Assembly: GCF_004363725.1 (NCBI RefSeq)
Contig: NZ_SNZF01000002.1
Coordinates: 186,001-250,000, forward strand
Direction of reading: 5' to 3'
Source: Aquamicrobium defluvii
Lineage (GTDB): Bacteria > Pseudomonadota > Alphaproteobacteria > Rhizobiales > Rhizobiaceae
DNA: 64,000 bases
Position 1 is the first letter of the stretch; each line of letters begins with the position of its first letter. Below the pieces are notes generated by a model. The model was not told the origin of the DNA and ran no database searches. It saw only the letters and a program-made list of their open reading frames with translations. Position numbers and translations under genes: made by a program. Shown here piece by piece: positions 26,834 to 40,129 of the stretch.

Positions 26834-27619
26834 CTACACCGCCAGCAGATGCCGCCTGGCGGGATCGGGGATCACCACGACAGCGCTGCCGTCCCGGACG
26901 GTGTCATGCAGGTGGATGATGTCCTGGTTGACCAGGCGGATGCAGCCGGAGGACACTTCCTTGCCGATCGACCACTCCTCCGGCGAGCCGTGAATGCGGT
27001 AAAGCGTGTCCCTGCCATCCTTGTGGATGTAGAGAGCCCGGGCGCCGAGCGGATTGCGGAGGCCGGGACCCATGCCGCCATTGGCGATGCTGTAGGGCTC
27101 GAGTTCGGGTTGACGCGCCACCATCTCGTCCGGGGGGGTCCAGCGCGGCCATGCCCGGCGATAGGCCATGACGGCGCGGCCCGCCCAGGCAAAGCCCTCG
27201 CGACCGACACCGATGCCGTAACGCGTCGCCCGCCCGCCTCGTCCGACGTGATAGAGATATTTCGCCGGCGTATCGACGATCAGCGTTCCTGGCTTTTCCG
27301 GCGTGTCATAGTCGATTTCGGTGCGCCAGAACCTTTCGTCGAGCTTGGAGATGTCGACCGCCGGAATCGAGAACTGCTCATGGGGCATGGCGTCGTACAT
27401 TGCTGGACGTACCCGTTTCGGTGTGGCCCGAACCGGAGCAGGAGGGGGCGTTGAAGGCGCTCCCGCCGAGACGCAGCCGGCAAGCGCTGCGGCGCTGGCG
27501 CCGATGACAAATGCCCGCCGCGTCAGGCCGGCGACATGGTTGCTTCGTTCACTCAAGGCTCGCAGATCCTCTTCAAGATTTGTCCCGGGCGCTGGATCAA
27601 ACTGCCCTGCCTTAAGCAC
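26834..27619 (-). CDS. L,D-transpeptidase (ErfK/YbiS/YkuD family), probable lipoprotein
   Basis: Forms 3-3 peptidoglycan cross-links or attaches proteins to the wall in the periplasm. The catalytic domain covers about residues 100-255 and includes the YkuD motif HGSPEEWSIGKEVSSGCIRL with the nucleophilic Cys. The N-terminal region has TRRAFVIGASAAALAGC, a twin-arginine-like signal plus lipobox, so export by Tat with lipidation is possible. The longest frame begins at GTG 27619; a TTG at 27556 with GAGGAT upstream would give a more usual leader. Alphaproteobacteria typically encode several paralogues. Confidence 0.88.
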   Translation of the reverse strand: MLKAGQFDPAPGTNLEEDLRALSERSNHVAGLTRRAFVIGASAAALAGCVSAGAPSTPPPAPVRATPKRVRPAMYDAMPHEQFSIPAVDISKLDERFWRTEIDYDTPEKPGTLIVDTPAKYLYHVGRGGRATRYGIGVGREGFAWAGRAVMAYRRAWPRWTPPDEMVARQPELEPYSIANGGMGPGLRNPLGARALYIHKDGRDTLYRIHGSPEEWSIGKEVSSGCIRLVNQDIIHLHDTVRDGSAVVVIPDPARRHLLAV

Positions 27620-27839
27620 ACCTTAAGCCTATGAAGCGGCACCCATGGTGTTACGCGTCCAGTTTGATAGGTTGTTAGTATTCAGGGCCTAGTGTTGTGC
27701 CTGCAGCAAACAGGCAACTTCAGGGTGCAGACTTGATCAGCAACGTCCGGCCTTCGTCGGAGCAGAAAAATTGCGTGGCCGGGAATCCGTGCTGCCACGG
27801 AGGCCATTCCATGCCGCACTGTTTCGCAGGACATTTCAG

Positions 27840-29744
27840 ATGTGCGGCATAGCCGGTTATTTCGGCCATCTGCGCCAGGATGAATCCCGCAGCCTGCTGC
27901 ATGGCATGAGCGCCGCCATCGCCCACCGCGGTCCGGATGGCGAAGGCATCCATGCCGACGGGCAATTCGGGTTTGCGCACCGGCGTCTTGCCGTCATCGA
28001 TCTCTCGCCCGACGGCGCACAACCGATGGCCAGCGGCGATGGGTCGCTATGCATCACCTACAACGGCGAGATCTTCAACCATATCGAGCTGCGCGCAATG
28101 CTCGAAGGGCGTGGCAGGCGCTTCAGAACCGCCAGCGACACCGAGGTCCTGCTTCAACTTTACGATGAATACGGACCGGACTGCCTCAGCCACCTCAATG
28201 GCGATTTCGCTTTTGCGATATGGGACGCGAAGCGCCGCCGCATGGTTCTGGCACGCGACCGCATGGGCGTGCGGCCGCTGGTCTACACATGGCACCAGGG
28301 CCTTTTCTACTTCGCTTCCGAGGTAAAGGCGCTGTTCACCGTGCCGGGGATAGAGGCCAGACTCGACCCTGTCGCTCTCGATCAGGTCTTCACCTTATGG
28401 GCACCGATCGCGCCGCGGACGGGTTTCACGGGCATTTCGGAGCTGCCGCCAGGTCACCTCATGATCGTCGAGGCGGGCAAGGCGGACGTCAGACCTTACT
28501 GGACCCTGTCGTTCCCGGACAAGGGGGACGAAAGCGATCGTCCGCAGGGCGAGCTTGTCGAGGAATTGCGGGCCCTGCTCGAAGATGCGACGCGCATCCG
28601 TCTGCGTGCCGACGTCGAGGTCGGCTCATTGCTTTCGGGCGGGCTCGACTCGTCCATGCTCACGGCCCTCGCCGCACGGGTGGTGCCGGGCCGGTTGCGC
28701 AGCTTCGGCATCACCTTCGAGGATCCCGAGTTCGATGAAAGCACCTGGCAGCAAACCATGGCGGACGCACTTGGCGTCACGCACCATTCGGTCGCCTGCC
28801 GGTCTGCCGACATAGCAAGCGTGTTTCCGGCGGTCGTCCGCCATGCGGAGCGCAGCCTGCTGCGCACAGCGCCGGCGCCGATGTACCGGCTGGCCCGGTC
28901 CGTGCGCGAACAGGGGGTGAAAGTCGTTCTTTCCGGCGAGGGCGCCGACGAGATATTCGCAGGCTACGATCTCTTCAGGGAGGCGTCCATTCGCCGCTTC
29001 TGCGCCCGCCAGCCGGGCTCGGCGATCCGTCCCCACCTGTTTCGCAGGATCTATCCCTATCTGCCGTCGCTTCGGCAGCAGACGCCGGATTACCTTGCCG
29101 CCTTTTTCGGCGTCAACGTGGACGATGCAGCCGACCCGCTGTTTTCGCACCGGCCCCGCTTCCGCACCACAGCCGGCACAAAAATGTTCTTCTCGGCAGA
29201 TCTGCGCGCCGAACTCGGCTCCTACGATGCGGCCGAGGAGCTTGCATCGCTTCTGCCCGACTCATTCCGGCGCTGGCACCCCCTGCATCAGGCGCTTTAT
29301 CTGGAGACACGCTTTTTATTGCCCGGCTACATACTGGCCAGCCAGGGTGACCGCATGGCAATGGCGCATGGCGTCGAAGCACGCTTTCCTTTCCTCGACT
29401 ACAGGGTGGTGGAATTCGGTGCGAACCTTCCCCCCGGCGCCAAACTCAGGGTTCTTCGGGAAAAGCACATCCTGCGGGAGGTTGCGGCCGACATTGTGCC
29501 GCCCGTCATAGCCCAGCGGCGCAAGCAGCCTTACCGCGCACCCGACAGCGCATCCTTCAGGGAAGCGAACTACGCTGCGGAATTGCTGTCGCCCGAGGCG
29601 GTTTCGTCGACGAGCCTGTTCAATCCGGCCATGACCGGCCGTCTCCTCGACAAGAGCCGTCGAAGCGGGTTGAACGGCTTCCGGGACAATGCCGCCTTCG
29701 TCGGCGTGCTTTCCACGCAGCTTTTGTCAGATGAATTTCTATAG
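27840..29744 (+). CDS. Asparagine-synthetase-like amidotransferase (glutamine-hydrolysing)
   Basis: 634 residues from ATG at 27840. Cys2 (MCGIAGYFG) is the glutaminase nucleophile, so the upstream in-frame extension is not used. The class II glutaminase domain covers residues 2 to about 210 (AHRGPDGEGIH; YNGEIFNH). The synthetase domain has the ATP-pyrophosphatase loop LLSGGLDSSMLTAL near residue 265 and SQGDRMAMAHGVEARFPFLD. Family members make asparagine or amidate other acyl substrates. Here it opens a tight four-gene unit with an acyl carrier protein, an acid-AMP ligase and a NadE-like enzyme, which argues for a specialised amidation rather than housekeeping asparagine synthesis. Confidence 0.88.
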   Translation: MCGIAGYFGHLRQDESRSLLHGMSAAIAHRGPDGEGIHADGQFGFAHRRLAVIDLSPDGAQPMASGDGSLCITYNGEIFNHIELRAMLEGRGRRFRTASDTEVLLQLYDEYGPDCLSHLNGDFAFAIWDAKRRRMVLARDRMGVRPLVYTWHQGLFYFASEVKALFTVPGIEARLDPVALDQVFTLWAPIAPRTGFTGISELPPGHLMIVEAGKADVRPYWTLSFPDKGDESDRPQGELVEELRALLEDATRIRLRADVEVGSLLSGGLDSSMLTALAARVVPGRLRSFGITFEDPEFDESTWQQTMADALGVTHHSVACRSADIASVFPAVVRHAERSLLRTAPAPMYRLARSVREQGVKVVLSGEGADEIFAGYDLFREASIRRFCARQPGSAIRPHLFRRIYPYLPSLRQQTPDYLAAFFGVNVDDAADPLFSHRPRFRTTAGTKMFFSADLRAELGSYDAAEELASLLPDSFRRWHPLHQALYLETRFLLPGYILASQGDRMAMAHGVEARFPFLDYRVVEFGANLPPGAKLRVLREKHILREVAADIVPPVIAQRRKQPYRAPDSASFREANYAAELLSPEAVSSTSLFNPAMTGRLLDKSRRSGLNGFRDNAAFVGVLSTQLLSDEFL

Positions 29745-29787
29745 CTGGCACAGTGATGGCCAGAGTTCAGCATGAAAGGCTAATCCC

Positions 29788-30048
29788 ATGTCCGAAACCG
29801 TCCAAAATCAGGTCCGCACCTTCGTCGTGGACAATTTCCTGTTCGGCGATCAGGACGCGCTTTCAGGGGACGATCAGTCGCTGATCGAGAATGACGTCAT
29901 CGACTCCACCGGTGTTCTGGAGCTGGTTTCCTTCATCGAGGAGCGCTTCGGCATCGCCATGTCCGATGCCGAGATCGTGCCGGCCAATCTGGACTCGGTA
30001 TCGCGTATTGCCGCCTTCATCGAACGCAAGCGCGAAACGGTGAACTGA
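29788..30048 (+). CDS. Stand-alone acyl/aminoacyl carrier protein
   Basis: 86 residues with the phosphopantetheine attachment Ser40 in ENDVIDSTGVLELVSFIEE. The usual DSL motif is DST here, as in several specialised carrier proteins (for example DltC-like and secondary-metabolism carriers) rather than fatty-acid AcpP. Four predicted helices, acidic. AAAGG precedes the ATG. It lies 43 bases after the amidotransferase gene and 8 bases before the ligase, so it is presumably loaded by that ligase. Confidence 0.88.
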   Translation: MSETVQNQVRTFVVDNFLFGDQDALSGDDQSLIENDVIDSTGVLELVSFIEERFGIAMSDAEIVPANLDSVSRIAAFIERKRETVN

Positions 30049-30056
30049 GGCCGGCG

Positions 30057-31589
30057 ATGCGTATCGAAGCACTTCTCAGGCAGAGCGCGCGGTCCGCGCC
30101 TGACAAGGTCGCGGTCACCGCCGGCGATACGCGCCTGAGCTATGCCGAACTCGATGCGCAGTCCGACCGGCTTGCGGCGTCGCTGCTGAAGGAAGGCGTC
30201 GGGCAGGGCGACCGGGTTGCCGTGCTGATGGAGAACATTCCCGAAGCGGCCATCGCAATATTCGCGGTACTGAAGGCTGGCGCGATCTTCTGCCCGATCA
30301 ACCCTCAGCTCAAGGCGGGCGGCGTTGCCCTGATCCTCCACGATGCGCGCCCGCGCGCGATCCTGACCCAGGCCAGGTTCATCGCCTTGTGCAGGGAGGC
30401 TTCCGCCGGGCTCAGCCTGCCGCCGCTGCTGATCTCGAAGCGTGCGCCGACCGCTTTGCCGGAAGGCGTCCTGCCGTTCGACGAACTTGTCGAAAATGGC
30501 GGTGGAGCGCTGCCGGAAGCCGGCGATGACGGCAAACTGGCAATGATCATCTATACATCGGGATCAACCGGCAGGCCCAAAGGCGTGATGATGAGCCATT
30601 CGGCCATGGATGCCGCATCCCGATCCATCGCCCTTTATCTGGACCACCGTTCCAGCGATGTGGTGTTGTGCCCGTTGCCGCTTGCCTTCACCTATGGCCT
30701 CTACCAGCTTCTGGTGTGCGTGCGCACAGGCGCGCATCTGGTGCTGGAGCGCAATTTCGCCTTCCCGCATGCGGTGCTGGAAAAGGCGCGGGCGGAGAAC
30801 GTGACAGGCATGCCGCTGGTGCCGACCATTGCCGCCATGCTGCTCGCCATGAAGGAACTGGAGCCGGGCGCGCTGCCTGCATTGCGCTATCTCACCAACG
30901 CCGCCGCTCCCCTGCCGCCATCCCATGTGGATGGGCTGCGCAAGCTCTTTCCAGGTGTGCTGCTCTATTGCATGTACGGGCTCACCGAATGCGCACGCGC
31001 AGCCTATCTCGACCCGGCCGAGCTCGACAGGAAGAACGGATCGGTCGGCAAGGCCATTCCCGATACGGAGGTTGCGGTCGTGGATGAGCAGGACCATCCG
31101 GTTCCGGCCGGAACGGTCGGCGAACTGGTGGTGCGCGGTCCCCACCTGATGCGCGGCTACTGGGAAAATGCCGAAGCGACGCGGCAGGCCCTGCGCCCGG
31201 ACCCGCTATCGGGGCGACTCCAGCTGCACACGGGCGATCTGTTTCGCACCGATGGGGAAGGCTTCCTCTATTTCGTCGGCCGCAAGGACGACATGCTGAA
31301 GGTGCGCGGGGAGAAAGTGGCCCCGCGCGAGGTGGAGGCCGCACTGTGTACCTGTCCCGGCGTGGTCGAGGCCGTCGCGTTCGGCCGTCCGGACCCGGTA
31401 CAGGGCACCATATTGCATGCTGCCGTGGTGGCTTCCGATCCATCGCTCACCGAACGCGATCTGCTGCGCCACTGCGCGCGCAGCCTTCCTGATTTCATGG
31501 TGCCGAAGACAATCGGATTTCACACAGAGTTACCGAAAACCGCCAGCGGCAAGATTGCCCGCAGGCTGCTTGTAGAAAGTGGAGACTGA
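30057..31589 (+). CDS. Acid-AMP (acyl-CoA/acyl-ACP) ligase
   Basis: 510-residue adenylate-forming enzyme. ANL motifs: MIIYTSGSTGRPKGVMMSHS (phosphate loop), YGLTECARAAYL, GDLFRTDGEGFLYFVGRKDD, and the C-terminal catalytic Lys in PKTASGKIARRLL. It should adenylate a carboxylic acid and transfer it to the neighbouring carrier protein or to CoA. The substrate pocket cannot be read by eye. Similar stand-alone ligases occur beside carrier proteins in D-alanylation and lipopeptide-initiation systems. It is tightly spaced with both neighbours. Confidence 0.85.
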   Translation: MRIEALLRQSARSAPDKVAVTAGDTRLSYAELDAQSDRLAASLLKEGVGQGDRVAVLMENIPEAAIAIFAVLKAGAIFCPINPQLKAGGVALILHDARPRAILTQARFIALCREASAGLSLPPLLISKRAPTALPEGVLPFDELVENGGGALPEAGDDGKLAMIIYTSGSTGRPKGVMMSHSAMDAASRSIALYLDHRSSDVVLCPLPLAFTYGLYQLLVCVRTGAHLVLERNFAFPHAVLEKARAENVTGMPLVPTIAAMLLAMKELEPGALPALRYLTNAAAPLPPSHVDGLRKLFPGVLLYCMYGLTECARAAYLDPAELDRKNGSVGKAIPDTEVAVVDEQDHPVPAGTVGELVVRGPHLMRGYWENAEATRQALRPDPLSGRLQLHTGDLFRTDGEGFLYFVGRKDDMLKVRGEKVAPREVEAALCTCPGVVEAVAFGRPDPVQGTILHAAVVASDPSLTERDLLRHCARSLPDFMVPKTIGFHTELPKTASGKIARRLLVESGD

Positions 31590-31592
31590 AGG

Positions 31593-32573
31593 ATGCCGGG
31601 GGGGCTGGCTTTTTCAAGAAGAACGCTCGATATCGATGCCAGGTCCGAAACGGATCGCATTGTCGAAGCTTTGCGGAAACAGTTGCGCGGAGCCGTGCGG
31701 CGCCGCGGCCTGGTGCTCGGCCTTTCGGGCGGCATCGACTCCAGCGTCTGCGCCGCTCTTGCCGCGCGCGCGGTCGGCCCGAAGAACGTTTTCTGCCTGT
31801 TCATGCCCGAACATGATTCCGACCCGATCAGCCTGCATCTCGGCCGACTGGTGGCCGACACCTTCGGCCTCGATGGCACAGTCGAGGACATCGGGCCGAC
31901 GCTGGCGGCAATGGGTTGCTACGAACGGCGCGACAGCTTCATCCGCGAAGTGGAGCCGGACTACGGGCCGGGCTGGAGCAACAAGATCGTGTTCGCCAAT
32001 GCGCTCACCACCTCTGGCTTCAATATTTCCTCGCTCGTCGTGCGGAACCCACAAGGTGAAATCCGCAAGCACCGGCTGCCGGCGCATGTCTATCTCGGCA
32101 TCGTGGCCGCCACCAACATGAAGCAGCGCACCCGCAAGCAGTTCGAGTATTACCATGCCGACCGGCTGAACTATGCCGTTGTCGGCACGCCAAACCTGCT
32201 GGAATACGATCAGGGCTTCTTCGTCAAGAACGGCGACGGCGCGGCCGACGTCAAGCCGATCGCCCATCTCTACAAGAGCCAGGTCTATCAGCTTGCCGAA
32301 TATCTGGGCGTGCCGGAGGAGGTGCGCCGCCGCCCGCCGACCACCGACACCTATTCGCTGGCGCAAACGCAGGAGGAGTTCTACTTCGCCCTGCCCTATG
32401 ACCGGATGGATCTGTGTCTCTACGGGCTGAATCGCTGCATTGCGGCAGCGGAGGTGGCGAAGGCCGCCTCCCTGACCGAGGACGAGGTGAAGCTGGTGTG
32501 GTGCGACATTACCGCGAAACGCAAGGCAGCGCGCTATCTTCACCTGCCGCCGCAGACGGTGGTTCCGGTCTGA
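31593..32573 (+). CDS. NadE-like ammonia-dependent amide synthase (NAD synthase family)
   Basis: 326 residues, single-domain: no nitrilase-type glutaminase domain is present. The ATP-pyrophosphatase loop is LVLGLSGGIDSSVCAALAAR. Family features include YAVVGTPNLLEYDQGFF and KNGDGAADVKPIAHLYKSQV. True NAD synthase converts deamido-NAD to NAD. However, housekeeping NadE in rhizobia is usually the long glutamine-dependent form, and this gene starts 3 bases after the ligase stop with its GGAG site inside the ligase. I infer a dedicated amidating step in the cassette; a genuine NAD synthase remains possible. Confidence 0.8.
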   Translation: MPGGLAFSRRTLDIDARSETDRIVEALRKQLRGAVRRRGLVLGLSGGIDSSVCAALAARAVGPKNVFCLFMPEHDSDPISLHLGRLVADTFGLDGTVEDIGPTLAAMGCYERRDSFIREVEPDYGPGWSNKIVFANALTTSGFNISSLVVRNPQGEIRKHRLPAHVYLGIVAATNMKQRTRKQFEYYHADRLNYAVVGTPNLLEYDQGFFVKNGDGAADVKPIAHLYKSQVYQLAEYLGVPEEVRRRPPTTDTYSLAQTQEEFYFALPYDRMDLCLYGLNRCIAAAEVAKAASLTEDEVKLVWCDITAKRKAARYLHLPPQTVVPV

Positions 32574-32580
32574 ATGAAGG

Positions 32581-33339
32581 TCAGGACGCCGGCGCGAAGC
32601 GCGCCACCAAAGTGTGGCTGTCGCCTGGATAGGTCAGCCGCACGAAGGTGACCGGGCCGGCATGGCTCCATGTTCGCCGCTCGACCACGAGGCAGGCCGC
32701 TCCCTTGGGCTGTTCGAGCAGGCGTGCCATGTCGGCGGAAGCCGTTATTGCCTGAATGCGATTTTCGGCGGCACTCCAGGGCACTTGCGCAATCAGCCAG
32801 CCACCCGGCGGATTCGCCGTGAAATCGGCCGCCGTCGCCTCCGGAACGACGCCGGCATTGATGCGGCGCTCCTCCACGCAGAACGGCTTGCCTCCGGCGC
32901 GATGCACGGCAAGCAGTTCGATCATGGGCGTGGCCTGCGCCAGCTCCATCAGCCGCCGATCTTCGGCGTTCGAAGGTCGCGTCTTGCGCGAAACGAGGCT
33001 GTAGCCGTAAGGCATGCCGAGCGATTTCACCTCGGCCTCGATGTCGTGAAGCTCCAGCACGGCGGACTGCGCGCGCGGCCGGGTGACGAAGCTGCCTGCC
33101 TTGCGGTGGCGTTCGATCAGCCCCGCCTTGGCAAGCTGGGTCATGACCTTGTTCACCGTCATGCGCGAACAGCCATAATGTTCGGCCAGATCGACCTCGA
33201 ACGGCAGGCGGAAGCCCGGCGGCCATTCGCCGGACACGATGCGCCCCTCGATCTCGCTCAGGATCGTCTGGTGGAGGGTCGCATCCTTGCCGTTAGCCTT
33301 CGCCACTTTGCCTTCGCTCTTGTTGTGCCCGGCAATCAC
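32581..33339 (-). CDS. hutC: Histidine utilisation repressor HutC (GntR family)
   Basis: Represses the hut genes and is released by urocanate. About 252 residues from GTG at 33339; a GTG at 33306 preceded by GAAGG is an alternative, and the frame upstream belongs to antisense of hutF. The N-terminal winged helix has LPFEVDLAEHYGCSRMTVNK. The C-terminal UTRA ligand domain includes PMIELLAVHRAGGKPFCVEE. It follows hutF on the same strand by about 30 bases and converges with the NadE-like gene. Confidence 0.9.
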   Translation of the reverse strand: MIAGHNKSEGKVAKANGKDATLHQTILSEIEGRIVSGEWPPGFRLPFEVDLAEHYGCSRMTVNKVMTQLAKAGLIERHRKAGSFVTRPRAQSAVLELHDIEAEVKSLGMPYGYSLVSRKTRPSNAEDRRLMELAQATPMIELLAVHRAGGKPFCVEERRINAGVVPEATAADFTANPPGGWLIAQVPWSAAENRIQAITASADMARLLEQPKGAACLVVERRTWSHAGPVTFVRLTYPGDSHTLVARFAPAS

Positions 33340-33371: not shown

Positions 33372-34715
33372 CTACTCCGCGAGTTCCGCCATTACCTCTG
33401 CAAAACGCGCGGCAATCGCATCGCGCTTGCGGTGGCAGCCTGCCTCGACCTGCTTTGCTCCGCCCACCCATACGCTGTCGACGCCAATTCCGCGGGCGAA
33501 GACGAAATGGTCGAGCACCTTTTCCGCTGGCAGGTACCGCGTGGCAGAAAGGTCGAGCGCGAGAAGGTCGGCCGGACGACCGGCCTCGATGCCGCCGGTG
33601 GTGCCGAGCGCCTGCGCACCGCCCTTCAGCGCCTGCATATAGAGGTTCAGGCCGGTGGACTGGCCGGGATCGGCCACCACGTTGCGCGAGCGACGCAAGA
33701 GGCGCTGCGAATATTCCAGCGTGCGCAGCTCCTCCTCCAGCGAGATCAGGATGTTGCTGTCCGAACCGACGCCGAAGCGCCCGCCGGCGGCGAGAAAATC
33801 GGGAGCCTCGAACACGCCGTCGCCCAGATTGGCCTCGGTGATCGGGCAAAGCCCCGCCACCGCGCCGCTTTTTCCCATGCGCGCGGTTTCATCCGCGGTC
33901 ATGTGGGTGGCGTGGATCAGGCACCAGCGATCATCGAGCTGCATGTTGTCGAGCAGCCATTCCACAGGGCGCTTGCCGGACCATGCGATGCAGTCCTCCA
34001 CCTCCTTCACCTGCTCGGCGACATGGATGTGGACCGGCCCGCCGCTGGCGAAGGGAACGACCGCCCGCAACTCGTCAGGCGTCGCGGCGCGCAGGCTGTG
34101 CGGAGCAATGCCGAGAACCGCGCCGGGGAGGCCGGCAACGATCTCCTCCGAGCGCTCCATCAGCCGGGCGAAGGCGTCGACATCGTGGATGAAACGGCGC
34201 TGCCCCTCGATGGGCGCCGCGCCGCCGAAACCGGAATGGGCGTAGAACACCGGCAAGAGGGTGAGCGCGATGCCGGTTTCAGCGCTGGCGGCGCCAATGC
34301 GCGCGGCCATCTCGGCCGGATCGGCATAGTGCGAGCCGTCCTTGTCGTGATGCAGATAGTGGAATTCGCCGACCCGGCAGAAGCCCGCCTCCAGCATTTC
34401 CATGTAAAGCTGCGCCGCGACCGCCTCGACCTGCTCCGGCGTCATCGACAGGGCAACGCGATACATTTCGGTGCGCCAGCTCCAGAAGCTGTCGGCGCCC
34501 GGGCCACGCGTCTCGGCCAGACCAGCCATGGCCCGCTGGAAGGCATGGCTATGCAGATTGGGCATGGCGGGAACCACGAAGCGGTGGCGCTCATCGCCCG
34601 CCTGGACAGCCGCGCCCGTCTCCACACGTCCGATGCCTGAACCCGAAAAGGTGATGCGCACATCGCGCGCCAGACCCTCAGGCAAAAGCGCATGTTCAGC
34701 GTGGATGACGGCCAT
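33372..34715 (-). CDS. hutF: Formimidoylglutamate deiminase
   Basis: Hydrolyses N-formimino-L-glutamate to N-formyl-L-glutamate and ammonia, the branch used by five-step hut pathways. 447 residues from ATG at 34715 with GGGAGA upstream. Amidohydrolase fold with PNLHSHAFQRAMAG (metal HxH), HIHVAEQ, IHATHM and GVGSDSN motifs. Divergent from hutI and co-oriented with hutC; hutG, the enzyme for the next step, is in the opposite operon. Confidence 0.95.
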   Translation of the reverse strand: MAVIHAEHALLPEGLARDVRITFSGSGIGRVETGAAVQAGDERHRFVVPAMPNLHSHAFQRAMAGLAETRGPGADSFWSWRTEMYRVALSMTPEQVEAVAAQLYMEMLEAGFCRVGEFHYLHHDKDGSHYADPAEMAARIGAASAETGIALTLLPVFYAHSGFGGAAPIEGQRRFIHDVDAFARLMERSEEIVAGLPGAVLGIAPHSLRAATPDELRAVVPFASGGPVHIHVAEQVKEVEDCIAWSGKRPVEWLLDNMQLDDRWCLIHATHMTADETARMGKSGAVAGLCPITEANLGDGVFEAPDFLAAGGRFGVGSDSNILISLEEELRTLEYSQRLLRRSRNVVADPGQSTGLNLYMQALKGGAQALGTTGGIEAGRPADLLALDLSATRYLPAEKVLDHFVFARGIGVDSVWVGGAKQVEAGCHRKRDAIAARFAEVMAELAE

Positions 34716-34751
34716 GAATATCTCCCGGATCGCTGCCGCCCGCTCGCGGGC

Positions 34752-34800
34752 TTGACTTTTCGGCTTGCGTCGATTTCGATTAAGTATATACATATCAGCA
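34752..34800. promoter_or_regulatory. hutF/hutI divergent control region with a HutC-like operator
   Basis: The palindrome GTATATAC at 34784-34791 lies in the imperfect dyad AAGTATATACAT. HutC operators in other proteobacteria centre on a TGTATATACA-type core, so this is the best candidate site. A TTGACT box at 34752-34757 may be a -35 element for hutI. Assignment is by similarity and position only. Confidence 0.55.
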
Positions 34801-34852
34801 AGACGAAGCTTGCGCAATGCGCCAGTCAGAAAGCTCGTCAGGGAGATCACCG

Positions 34853-36079
34853 ATGGCAAAAGGCGACCGCATCTGGACCAATGCGCGGCTGGCGACGCTC
34901 GATCCCGGCCAGCCCGGGCTCGGCATCGTGGAGAAGGGCGCCATCGCCGCACGCGACGGCCGCATCCTGTTCGCCGGCCCGGCCGCCGACCTGCCTTCCG
35001 CCGCGCTTGCCGGTGCCGGGACCATCGATTGCGAGGGCCGCTGGATCACGCCCGGCCTGATCGACTGCCACACCCATCTGGTCCATGCCGGCAACCGGGC
35101 GCGCGAGTTCGAGATGCGGCTGGCCGGCGCTTCCTATGAGGAGATCGCGCGGGCCGGCGGCGGCATCGTCTCCTCCGTCACCAATGTGCGCGCCGCCGAC
35201 GAGGACACGCTGATCCGCGAGAGCCTGCCGCGCCTCGACGCGCTGCTGGCCGAAGGCGTGACCACCGTCGAGATCAAGTCCGGCTACGGCCTCACGATAG
35301 CCGACGAGCTGAAGATGCTGCGTGCCGCCCGCGCCCTTGCCGGCAAGCGCGACGTGGCCGTCGCCACCACCTGGCTCGGCGCGCATGCGACGCCTGCCGA
35401 ATACAAGGGCCGCAACGGAGGTTTCCTGCGCGAAGTGGTGCTGCCGGGGCTGGAAGCCGCCCATGCCGAGGGTCTTGTCGATGCCGTGGACGGCTTCTGC
35501 GAAGGCATCGCTTTCTCGCCCGACGAAATGAGGCTGGTGTTCGACGCCGCGCAGAAGCTCGGCCTCAGGGTCAAGCTGCATGCTGACCAGCTCTCCAACC
35601 TGCATGGTGCCGCCCTTGCCGCTTCCTATGGCGCACTGTCGGCAGACCATCTGGAATATACGGACGACGAGGGTGCCGCCGCCATGGCAAGGACCGGCAC
35701 GGTCGCGGTGCTGCTGCCGGGCGCCTTCTACTTCATTCGCGAGACGAAAAAGCCGCCGGTCGAGCTGTTCCGCAAGCACGGAACCCATATCGCGCTCGCC
35801 ACCGACAACAATCCCGGCACCTCGCCGCTGACCTCGCTGCTGCTCACCATGAACATGGGCGCGACGCTGTTTGCGCTGACCGTGGAAGAGTGCATTGTCG
35901 GCATCACCCGCGAGGCGGCGCGCGCGCTCGGCAGGCTGGATACCGTCGGCACGCTGGAAGCCGGCAAGCAGGCGGACCTCGCCATCTGGGACATCACCGA
36001 GCCGGCCGAGCTCGTCTACCGCATCGGCTTCAACCCGCTGCATGCCCGCATCCGCGCCGGCCGCGACGCCACGATCTGA
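34853..36079 (+). CDS. hutI: Imidazolonepropionase
   Basis: Hydrolyses imidazolone-5-propionate to N-formimino-L-glutamate. 408 residues from ATG at 34853 with AGGGAG upstream (the frame is open from 34817). Metal-binding [19 protein letters not shown], then KLHADQLSN and [11 protein letters not shown], typical of HutI. First gene of the plus-strand hut operon; 22 bases to hutH. Confidence 0.96.
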
Positions 36080-36101
36080 ACCCCTCCCGGAGGAAACCAG
36101 C

Positions 36102-37637
36102 ATGACCATCACGCTTCATCCCGGTTCCGTGCCGCTGGCCGATCTGGCCGCGATCTTCTGGACTGGCGAGAACGCCGTCCTCGACCGCAGCTTCGATTCC
36201 CGCATCGAGAAGGCGGCGGCCCGCATCGCCGCCATCGCCGCCGGCAACGAGCCGGTCTATGGCGTCAACACCGGCTTCGGCAAGCTCGCCTCGATCAAGA
36301 TCGACGCCGCCGACACCGCCACCCTCCAGCGCAACCTCATCCTGTCGCATTGCTGCGGCGTCGGGGCGCCGCTGCCGGAAAACATCGTGCGGCTGATCAT
36401 GGCGCTGAAGCTCGTCTCGCTGGGGCGCGGTGCATCCGGCGTGCGGCTGGAGCTGGTGCGCCTGATCGAGGGCATGCTGGAAAAGGGCGTGGTGCCGCTG
36501 ATCCCTGAAAAGGGCTCGGTCGGGGCGTCCGGCGACCTTGCCCCGCTCGCGCATTTCGCCGCCGTCATGATGGGCGAAGGCGAAGCCTTCTATCAGGGCG
36601 AGCAGCTTTCGGGCCGTGCGGCGCTGGAGCGCGCCGGCTTGCAGCCGGTCGTGCTCGCTGCCAAGGAAGGTCTGGCGCTGATCAACGGCACCCAGGCCTC
36701 GACCGCGCTGGCGCTGGCCGGCCTGTTCCGCGCCCACCGCGCCGCGCAGGCGGCGCTGATCACCGGCGCGCTTTCCACCGACGCGGCCATGGGCTCCTCC
36801 GCCCCCTTCACCGCCGACATCCACACGCTGCGCGGCCACAGGGGCCAGATCGACACGGCGGCGGCACTCCGCGCCCTGCTCGACGGCTCGGTCATCCGCC
36901 AGAGCCATATCGACGGCGACGAGCGCGTGCAGGACCCCTACTGCATCCGCTGCCAGCCGCAGGTCGACGGTGCCTGCCTCGACCTGCTGCGCCAGGTCGG
37001 CCGCACGCTGGAGATCGAGGCCAACGCCGTCACCGACAACCCGCTGGTGCTGTCCGACGACAGTGTCGTCTCGGGCGGCAATTTCCACGCCGAGCCGGTG
37101 GCCTTCGCCGCCGACCAGATCGCGCTCGCCGTCTGCGAGATCGGGGCGATTGCCCAGCGCCGCATCGCGCTTCTGGTCGATCCGGCGCTTTCCTACGGCC
37201 TGCCGCCCTTCCTCGCCCGCAATCCGGGCCTCAACTCCGGTCTGATGATCGCCGAAGTGACCTCCGCTGCGCTGATGAGCGAGAACAAGCAGATGTCACA
37301 TCCGGCCTCGGTGGATTCCACGCCGACCTCGGCCAATCAGGAAGACCACGTTTCCATGGCCTGCCACGGCGCGCGCCGCCTGTTGCAGATGACGGAGAAC
37401 CTGTTCAGCATCATCGGCATCGAGGCGCTGGCCGGCGCGCAGGGCGTGGAGCTGCGCGGCCCGCTGACCACCAGCCCCGAATTGCAGAAGGCGATTGCCT
37501 GCCTGCGCGCCGCCGTTCCGGCGCTGGAAAACGACCGCTACATGGCGCCCGATCTTGCCGTTGCGGCCAAGCTGGTCGCCGACGGCTCGCTGACCGCCAG
37601 CGTCTCGGCCGGCCTGCTGCCCGCTCTGGAGGGCTGA
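36102..37637 (+). CDS. hutH: Histidine ammonia-lyase
   Basis: Converts L-histidine to trans-urocanate and ammonia, the entry step. 511 residues from ATG at 36102 with GGAGG. The self-forming MIO cofactor triad is Ala142-Ser143-Gly144 in [16 protein letters not shown]. Also [10 protein letters not shown] and the C-terminal [15 protein letters not shown]. Stop and hutG start are one base apart. Confidence 0.97.
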
Positions 37638-37638
37638 G

Positions 37639-38442
37639 ATGGCCGCTGTGTTCGAAGTCCGCCAGGGCACGTCGCCGGTCATTCTGGGCCTGCCGCATAC
37701 CGGCACCGACGTGCCGGACGACATCAGGGGGCGCCTGAACGACAACGGTCTATTGCTCGCCGACACCGACTGGCACATTCACAAGCTCTATGACGGGCTG
37801 CTCGACAACGTCACCACGGTGCGCGCCACCTTCCACCGCTATTGCATCGATGCCAATCGCGATCCGGCGGGCGCGAGCCTCTATCCCGGCCAGAACACCA
37901 CCTCGCTGATCCCCGAGACCGACTTCGACGGCGTTTCGATCTGGAAAGAAGGCCAGGCTCCGACCGAAGCCGACACCGCCGACCGCATCGCGCGCTTCCA
38001 CAAGCCCTATCACGATGCGCTTGCGGCCGAGATCGCGCGGGTGAAGGCGATCCATGGCGTGGCCATCCTCTACGATTGCCATTCCATCCGCTCGCATATC
38101 CCCTTCCTGTTCGAGGGCAAGCTGCCGGACTTCAACATCGGCACCGACATGGGAAGAACGTGCGACCCGGCGATCGAAGCCGCAGCCGTCGAGATCGCGC
38201 GCAAGGCGGAAGGCTACAGCTCGATCCTGAACGGCCGCTTCAAGGGGGGCTGGACGACGCGCCACTATGGCAGGCCGGAAACGGGCGTCCACGCCATCCA
38301 GATGGAGCTTGCCCAATCCACCCATCTCGCCGCCGAGACAGTGCCCTTCGACTACGACGAAACGAAAGCCGCGCGCCTGCGCGTGCCTTTGAAAGCCATT
38401 CTCGAACGCATCGAACAGGTCGCGTTCGGGCTTAAACGCTGA
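37639..38442 (+). CDS. hutG: N-formylglutamate deformylase
   Basis: Releases formate from N-formyl-L-glutamate to give L-glutamate, the last hut step. 267 residues of the N-formylglutamate amidohydrolase family: [49 protein letters not shown]. This is the formylglutamate type, not the arginase-like formiminoglutamase that is also called HutG. That agrees with the presence of hutF. Confidence 0.95.
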
Positions 38443-38455
38443 GAGGACCCCAACC

Positions 38456-40129
<1,674 letters not shown>

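Follow-up and report, generated by a model that had tools for sequence, protein, structure and literature searches.

The four-gene cassette

In the genome of Aquamicrobium defluvii (Rhizobiaceae) four consecutive forward-strand genes, encoding an AsnB-like amidotransferase, an acyl carrier protein, a ligase of the ANL family and a NadE-like ATP-pyrophosphatase, form a cassette that had been pointed out in an earlier note made from the DNA sequence alone. The window is the whole stretch of 64,000 nucleotides that was analyzed (RefSeq assembly GCF_004363725.1, contig NZ_SNZF01000002.1, positions 186,001 to 250,000), and coordinates given without a handle refer to it. The module is genuine, conserved and, as far as our searches reach, mostly undescribed. 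The window proteins are labelled P0001 to P0004, loci carry L numbers and genomes G numbers, G000 being the window's own genome; protein lengths are given in amino acids (aa).

27840-29744, forward strand: AsnB-like class II glutamine amidotransferase P0001, 634 aa from the ATG
29788-30048, forward strand: stand-alone acyl carrier protein P0002, 86 aa, with Ser40 in a DST motif
30057-31589, forward strand: ANL-family acid or amino-acid:carrier ligase P0003, 510 aa, with the A4-like motif FTYG
31593-32573, forward strand: NadE-like ATP-pyrophosphatase P0004, a single-domain putative amide synthase, 326 aa

The genes are separated by 43, 8 and 3 base pairs (bp), as the earlier note had described, and the NCBIfam and Pfam assignments of the cassette proteins agree with each other. 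For the AsnB-like gene a longer mechanical open reading frame (ORF) exists, which begins at a TTG at 27771. The start was placed at the ATG at 27840 because Met-Cys arises only from this ATG.

Conservation of the cassette as a unit

A contig scan with P0004 gave 304 relatives, of which the best 80 were kept (the 80 best loci). All four genes are present in one order in each of these 80 loci, L012 being cut by the contig start. Because the 80 best loci are the closest relatives, taxonomic samples were added. The class-level sample yielded 2 of 289 genomes above the NF002048 cut-off and therefore finer samples were taken. In the order sample 20 of 297 genomes had a P0004 match at E<=1e-60; these are called cassette genomes and are compared with the 277 others. 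The phylum sample, which overlaps with the order sample, had such matches in 15 of 398 genomes at E<=1e-50. With one further genome from the class-level sample this amounts to 28 distinct sampled genomes. In 27 of them the AsnB-like, carrier, ligase and NadE-like genes lie within ~10 kilobases (kb). The gene set thus stays together in relatives, which the earlier note had proposed to check, and a neighborhood by chance is ruled out by the 80/80 best loci and the 27/28 sampled genomes.

The exception among the 28, G580 (L150), keeps the carrier, the ligase and the NadE-like gene, together with the acyltransferase partner GNAT1 described below, and has no AsnB-like gene within ~10 kb. The NadE-like step in G580 may work without the AsnB-like enzyme. 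The gene order varies in some genomes, being NadE-AsnB-ligase-carrier in L142-L147 and carrier-ligase-AsnB-NadE in Azospirillum, and therefore the set persists through rearrangement. Its spread is patchy, with the cassette in ~7% of the sampled order genomes and in 5 of 8 genomes sampled in the genus. The nearest relative found is a Mesorhizobium metagenome-assembled genome (L006), with 91-95% for the four proteins.

On a contig labelled Methylococcaceae (L056) the cassette NadE-like protein is 75% identical to that of the window, which reflects either transfer or mis-binning. Among the 14 named control genomes, one scored above the NF002048 cut-off as well. Mirror-tree correlations between the families range from 0.80 to 0.94; they have no species-tree baseline and are hence not used as evidence. 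In the clustering of ORFs, cluster 0 consisted mostly of antisense ORFs of the cassette genes and was ignored, and cluster 2 is a mixture of ligase and NadE-like ORFs.

The amidotransferase, the carrier and the ligase

The best NCBIfam model for P0001 is TIGR01536 with 506 bits (cut-off 267), followed by TIGR03108 with 410 bits (cut-off 817). The catalytic Cys2 of class II glutaminases and the SGGLDSS loop, both named in the earlier note, are present, and the loop is found in 94 of 98 aligned relatives. Asparagine synthetases bind aspartate by a TT-x-R motif. This motif is absent from P0001, where RT--AP aligns to TTIRAS of 1ct9 and TTVRAS of 6gq3, and at the same position 93 of the 98 aligned AsnB-like proteins show RTAPAP.

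The carrier P0002 matched no Pfam family, and in NCBIfam it gave only matches below the cut-off, the best being NF052616 with 57.5 of 130 bits. The phosphopantetheine Ser, which is Ser40 here, stands in DST in 98 of 99 aligned carriers and in DSM in the remaining one, so that DS is found in 99/99. A stand-alone carrier with this Ser adjoins an ANL ligase, and the two genes form a ligase-carrier pair.

For the ligase P0003 Pfam gives both AMP-binding domains, and reading by eye found what we take to be the ANL motifs that the earlier note had listed. Its best NCBIfam model is TIGR03098 (428 bits, cut-off 592). The best matches in the Protein Data Bank (PDB) are adenylation domains of non-ribosomal peptide synthetases (4.9e-89), with acyl-CoA ligases from 2.9e-59. 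In NCBIfam, the fatty-acid ligase type PRK06187 (368 of 476 bits) ranks above the amino-acid adenylation domain (282 of 317), both being below their cut-offs. Since the NCBIfam and the PDB rankings are in conflict, the ligase may use either class of substrate.

Ligases of the family fall into subtypes at the A4 position. Among 99 rows (98 distinct) FDYG occurs 75 times, FGYG 12 times, FTYG 10 times including the window, and FNYG twice. In adenylation domains an Asp at the A4 position binds the amino group of the substrate. Because of this role of the Asp it is proposed that FDYG ligases may load amino acids, and, judged by the motif, the FTYG ligase of the window may load another acid. A gene for a PrmC-like methyltransferase lies inside the fetched stretch in 46 of 75 FDYG loci vs 0 of 24 other loci. 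This association may simply track phylogeny, and the subtype idea is a lead rather than a proof.

The NadE-like protein

P0004 reaches 508 bits with NF002048 (cut-off 313). It is a single-domain protein with an SGGIDSS loop, as the earlier note had seen. For comparison 85 NadE-like members out of 99 were aligned (14 with ORFs outside 300-420 aa were dropped) together with 28 presumed NadE proteins (29 collected; L089, which is without the motif, was dropped). In both sets the ATP-core residues G43, S45-G47, D49, S50, N175, R179, R181, T199, N201, E204, D215 and K228 are conserved at >=90%. Other positions conserved in NadE are replaced in the family (window numbering): T211 by V, Y213 by N, D225 by H, L253 by T, G200 by P, and K202 by L or R. 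The window protein has V211, N213, H225, T253, P200 and L202, and V211, H225, T253 and P200 are found in 100% of the 85 members. The family also has ~50 extra residues in two stretches between ~108 and ~165, some of which are family-invariant. To judge from the alignment, the replaced residues may line the pocket for nicotinic acid adenine dinucleotide (NaAD), and the changes may remodel the acyl pocket.

A separate NadE is encoded in the same genome (G000:C11:43412-44179, 249 bits) in an open frame of 560-571 aa; by its length and sequence it is probably glutamine-dependent. The long nadE for which the earlier note had suggested to look is thus found, and P0004 as the sole NAD synthase of the genome is ruled out. 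Compared with NAD synthase NadE (NF002048/PRK00876 subfamily), P0004 has in common the sequence family, the SGGxDS loop and the other ATP-core residues, but differs by the replaced positions, the extra residues, other neighbors and the second nadE in the genome. The suspicion of the earlier note that the NadE-like protein may not be the housekeeping NAD synthase is supported by the separate nadE and the replaced residues.

Acyltransferase and methyltransferase partners

Besides the four genes, 69 of the 80 best loci have in their fetched flank a gene for a GNAT-type acyltransferase of ~370 aa, GNAT1 (P0005-P0007), which is read either from the opposite strand or, upstream of the cassette, from the same strand. 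In the remaining 11 loci the genome has a GNAT1 homologue beyond the flank, ten of them at E<=1e-80 and that of L012 at 1.4e-43. In Sinorhizobium meliloti GNAT1 lies ~9 kb from the cassette on the same contig. The GNAT1 of A. defluvii is located outside the window (G000:C21:18162-19271) and is 50% identical to P0006 (E 5.6e-117). Because it lies on another contig than the cassette, adjacency alone does not explain the link between the two.

An AlphaFold2 model of the L011 GNAT1, built with 35 relatives, has a predicted local distance difference test score (pLDDT) of 85.7 and a predicted TM-score (pTM) of 0.85. It matches 3n7z with Z 18.8 (284 residues aligned, 3.6 A), Eis (3ryo) with Z 18.4 (287 aligned, 3.9 A) and N-myristoyltransferase (3iu1) with Z 18.1 (300 aligned, 6.2 A). 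The best PDB matches overall have Z 17.4-18.8, and Foldseek TM values among the matches listed are 0.41-0.57. GNAT1 is thus predicted to be an acyltransferase with a tandem GNAT fold, of the Eis type and N-myristoyltransferase-like. At sequence level P0005 gave PF13527 below the cut-off (15.9 of 25), and P0006 and P0007 gave no model.

On two Azospirillum plasmids GNAT1 was not found at E<=1e-5; these bear a different GNAT (P0008), for which hhalign gives a probability of 33% of relation to GNAT1. In L205 and L207, which are outside the host order, a gene 32% similar to the Azospirillum GNAT adjoins the NadE-like gene. A second GNAT-like protein, a distant relative of GNAT1, follows the flippase in the polysaccharide clusters of L177 (8688-10028) and L025 (12497-13654; PF13527 below the cut-off), and it may add a second acyl group.

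The other partner is a PrmC/HemK-like protein of ~240 aa, encoded in 38 of the 80 best loci. Like the release-factor glutamine N5-methyltransferase PrmC/HemK it keeps the motifs NPPY (55/55 aligned) and PR-ETE (54/55), but it scores below the PrmC cut-off and is shorter: the copy of L177 reaches 181.9 bits with TIGR03534 (cut-off 199) and 151 bits with TIGR00536 (cut-off 115), and the PrmC-type homologue of the window genome has 296 aa. In L140 the PrmC-like gene overlaps GNAT1 by 4 bp. A dedicated PrmC-like gene was not found in the window genome at E<=1e-35, and at E<=1e-6 the 296-aa homologue (32%) is the single match.

In the order sample the partners co-occur with the cassette. At E<=1e-60, a line that was set after seeing the matches, GNAT1 is present in 12 of 20 cassette genomes vs 0/277 others and the PrmC-like gene in 9 of 20 vs 0/277; one or both are present in 19 of 20 vs 0/277, with G382 having neither. 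At E<=1e-35 the PrmC-like gene is found in 9/20 vs 1/277 (G430). Only a few candidates were scored per genome (up to 6 for GNAT1 and up to 9 for the PrmC-like gene) and related genomes are not independent, and therefore the p-values of this co-occurrence overstate the case.

In one sub-lineage, in which the genes are arranged as NadE-AsnB-ligase-carrier, Pfam detects additional domains in the gene preceding the NadE-like one: AMP-binding and thioesterase domains in L142 (7929-10160) and L144 (7181-9916), and a thioesterase domain in L208 (8379-9416).

Genes next to the cassette

26834-27619, reverse strand: L,D-transpeptidase gene (PF03734, 61.5 bits)
33372-40129: histidine-utilization genes (Pfam)

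The divergent L,D-transpeptidase gene mentioned in the earlier note is confirmed. It adjoins the cassette here, and a homologue adjoins GNAT1 in S. meliloti (L176 10232-11047); this proximity may be a coincidence. The genes 3' of the cassette encode a HutF-type deiminase, an amidohydrolase, an aromatic amino acid lyase, an N-formylglutamate amidohydrolase and an urocanase. An ORF at 32540-33226, whose frame was set mechanically, matched no Pfam family.

Polysaccharide genes around the cassette

In the window genome GNAT1 lies at the edge of a polysaccharide cluster, beside genes for an epimerase, Wzz, FkbM, a Wzx-type protein and an acyltransferase-3 protein. Further along the same contig (C21) a second AsnB-like gene, a UDP/GDP-sugar dehydrogenase and a glycosyltransferase follow. 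The second AsnB-like gene is located at C21:32559-34217 (L239; L241 4841-6721) and reaches 451 bits; it could encode a uronamide-forming, WbpS-like enzyme.

Comparable surroundings are seen in other lineages. In Chelativorans (L177) GNAT1, a PrmC-like gene, Wzx, Wzz, Wzy, a deacetylase and three glycosyltransferases precede the cassette, with Pfam assignments for all but GNAT1, and in Bosea (L025) the cassette is flanked by polysaccharide genes on both sides. In the Azospirillum loci L138 and L139 a cluster with an O-antigen ligase and glycosyltransferases ends, according to the annotation, with a deacetylase, carrier, ligase, AsnB, NadE and GNAT. Within the host order, the set in L208 is surrounded by genes for a flippase, an aminotransferase, a sugar transferase, an epimerase and export, and in L144 a polysaccharide export gene is near it. 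Outside the order, in L206, the four genes lie in a cluster of the exosortase-A type with a TIGR03006 deacetylase (390 bits, cut-off 276). On pSymB of S. meliloti (L176, L184) minCDE is located between the cassette and the GNAT1, PrmC-like and polysaccharide genes, and in Rhizobium sp. ACO-34A (L137) minCDE lies directly upstream of the cassette.

Wzx, Wzz, Wzy, deacetylase and GT2 were each represented by a model of our own making. Training of these five models drew for the most part on the best loci, and they gave matches in 35 of the 80 best loci, 23 of them with two or more. The models are insensitive and missed real polysaccharide genes in L208, L144 and L145. As controls, 20 stretches were taken elsewhere in ten cassette genomes; the Pfam scan covered selected cassette loci and not the controls.

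Proposed function of the cassette

We propose that the cassette is the acyl-supply part of a surface-polysaccharide decoration, in which an amide-bearing acyl group is built on the carrier and attached to the polysaccharide, and we consider the chances of this reading to be even. The ligase would activate a carboxylic acid with ATP and load it on the carrier. The AsnB-like enzyme, which would take its nitrogen from glutamine, and the NadE-like enzyme, with ammonia or another amine, would each convert a carboxylate to an amide via an acyl-adenylate, and the outcome would be an amide-bearing acyl group on the carrier. The double-GNAT protein GNAT1 would then move this group from the carrier to an amine of a surface polysaccharide. 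The amide is probably N-methylated by the PrmC-like enzyme in many relatives of the FDYG type. The amide steps, the acceptor, the product and the order of the steps are part of the proposal.

A more detailed version is put forward tentatively. It describes an assembly line in which amides for surface polysaccharides are made on the carrier. An enzyme derived from NadE and recruited from NAD synthesis, and one derived from AsnB, would amidate an acyl or aminoacyl group tethered to the carrier, an enzyme derived from PrmC would N-methylate the amide in the FDYG subtype and the myristoyltransferase-like double-GNAT would attach the group to the sugar chain; in the FTYG and FGYG types, to which the window belongs, the acid would not be an amino acid and there would be no methylation.

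Several observations weigh against a decoration system of this kind. Cassette and GNAT1 are on different contigs in the window genome. GNAT1-like genes at E<=1e-25 are present in 14 of the 20 cassette genomes and also in 11 of the 277 genomes without cassette. A search for GNAT1 at E<=1e-5 gave no match in the methyltransferase-bearing genomes G492, G503, G512, G521 and G548, and lineages without such a match may release the group or transfer it by another route. In 45 of the 80 best loci there was no match to any of the five polysaccharide models. In the sampled loci any of the five matched within ~10 kb in 6 of 28 (none with two) vs 1 of 20 controls (p 0.21), and thus a general enrichment of polysaccharide genes round every cassette is not shown. 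The weaker result for the sampled loci is offset by loci that were overlooked by the models but in which Pfam confirms polysaccharide genes. Finally, the AMP-ligase and thioesterase domains near the NadE-like gene suggest, by their domain assignment, that a free product is released in that sub-lineage. Some lineages show the polysaccharide link clearly, but as a general rule it is unproven.

Part of this evidence fits a different pathway, one dedicated to a small diffusible or lipid-linked amide metabolite, for which the polysaccharide genes would be coincidental or lineage-specific. Thioesterase domains before the NadE-like gene, as in L142, L144 and L208, are typical of the release of a free acid or amide; neither the 45 best loci nor 22 of the 28 sampled loci show any of the five models, and in L007-L011 GNAT1 is located just upstream on the same strand in a flank without such models. 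However, GNAT1 of the window genome sits at the edge of a polysaccharide cluster, the linkage recurs in Azospirillum, Bosea, Chelativorans, Sinorhizobium and the exosortase-type cluster outside the order, and the thioesterase-bearing loci L208 and L144 are themselves near polysaccharide export or sugar-transferase genes. We regard this metabolite pathway as unlikely. The earlier note had left the choice between an amidated metabolite and a surface modification; the latter gains support from the partner acyltransferase and the polysaccharide loci, and the thioesterase domains of one sub-lineage keep the former alive. Even less can be said for mere housekeeping duplicates, a second NAD synthase and a second asparagine synthetase that became neighbors by accident. 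In favor of this are the NCBI model, by whose name the NadE-like family would be NAD(+) synthase, and the score of P0001 above the cut-off of the asparagine synthase model, but the separate nadE, the cohesion of the four genes in the sampled genomes, the residues replaced in the NadE-like family and the absence of TT-x-R from the AsnB-like protein make this highly improbable.

The decoration could also consist of two separate modifications of one polysaccharide, by analogy with the Wbp/Vim pathway. The AsnB-like enzyme, and perhaps the NadE-like one, would amidate a uronic acid to a uronamide, and ligase, carrier and GNAT would acylate or aminoacylate an amine freed by a deacetylase. The precedent of WbpS, VimE and VimA in Porphyromonas gingivalis (PMC7468200) and a WbpS-like gene of Rubrivivax (PMC3684757), as far as the accessible parts of these papers go, speak for it, together with the deacetylases in several cassette loci and the predominance of FDYG ligases (75/99), which resemble adenylation domains with an Asp that binds the amino group. 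On the other hand, the second AsnB-like gene near the UDP/GDP-sugar dehydrogenase on C21 could make a uronamide, the Wbp/Vim pathway as presented in the accessible part of PMC7468200 has no carrier, ligase or NadE-like protein, and the existence of a PrmC-like partner points to an amide that is carried by a small side group. We therefore see the two-modification scheme as possible but rather doubtful.

Rhizobial surface polysaccharides matter for biofilms and plant contact. If the proposed carrier-bound amide supply is true, it would be a route that places amide groups, perhaps N-methylamide groups, on them. The proposal gives a testable role to a NadE paralogue family that is called NAD(+) synthase by the NCBI model, and it connects the cassette genes with the marker ligase and amidotransferase of polysaccharide clusters associated with exosortases. 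A carrier-ligase pair of S. meliloti receives such a role as well; its carrier has been in the literature since 2009, and in 2017 the carrier's function was still called unknown and in need of further investigation (accessible part of PMC5686131).

Comparison with known systems

The S. meliloti pair is SMb20650 and SMb20651. According to the accessible part of PMC7232532 the ligase gene SMb20650 is cotranscribed on pSymB with the carrier gene SMb20651, its expression in E. coli leads to acylated SMb20651, and FadD is not replaceable by SMb20650. This failure of the homologue to complement argues against the cassette ligase being a substitute of FadD for long-chain fatty acids, and this candidate function was rejected. 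In the accessible part of PMC10315480 smb20650 is among the genes down-regulated during predation. On pSymB of strain 1021, where the cassette is present in the usual gene order, the sole match of the window ligase at E<=1e-10 is 1451601-1453130 (56% identity), and beside it lies the only strong carrier match, 1453179-1453424 (62%), the second match having E 0.0055. Because the record of strain 1021 is without locus tags, the identity was established by uniqueness and not by name; on this sequence basis the counterparts of the cassette ligase and carrier are almost certainly SMb20650 and SMb20651. They form the same adjacent ligase-carrier pair in a four-gene set, but the S. meliloti ligase has FDYG where that of the window has FTYG. 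The description of the cassette as uncharacterized in the earlier note therefore has to be given up for ligase and carrier, as acylation of the carrier in E. coli has been published for their S. meliloti counterparts, and it stands for the rest as far as our searches reach.

A second likeness exists to the XrtA/PEP-CTERM system, as among the NCBIfam models TIGR03098 gives the highest score for the ligase and TIGR03108 the second highest for the AsnB-like protein. However, neither the window proteins (428 of 592 and 410 of 817) nor those of L206 reach the two cut-offs.

Asparagine-synthase-like genes in polysaccharide clusters are described in the accessible parts of reports on Rubrivivax (PMC3684757), where a WbpS-like gene influences aggregation, Thauera (PMC4784049) and Zoogloea, whose cluster has two asparagine synthetase genes (PMC9012009). 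The accessible part of PMC7468200 states that in P. gingivalis the AsnB-like WbpS is needed for the uronamide, that the putative deacetylase VimE frees the amine and that VimA, a putative N-acetyltransferase, sets which amino acid is added; it also reports VimA-related genes beside amidotransferases of the TIGR03108 type in exosortase loci. A literature search did not find NadE-like protein, GNAT1 and PrmC-like protein described as one system; subscription papers were mostly outside its coverage and a description may be in print.

This Wbp/Vim linking-sugar pathway is the best functional analogy for the cassette. In both, an AsnB-like amidotransferase would act on one surface sugar together with a putative deacetylase and a putative aminoacyl transferase of the GNAT type, whereas a carrier, a ligase, a NadE-like and a PrmC-like protein do not belong to the pathway as it is described in the accessible part of PMC7468200. 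The module is most likely a carrier-dependent or Vim-like decoration of surface sugars that includes a NadE-family enzyme, and this repurposed enzyme is its most unusual part.

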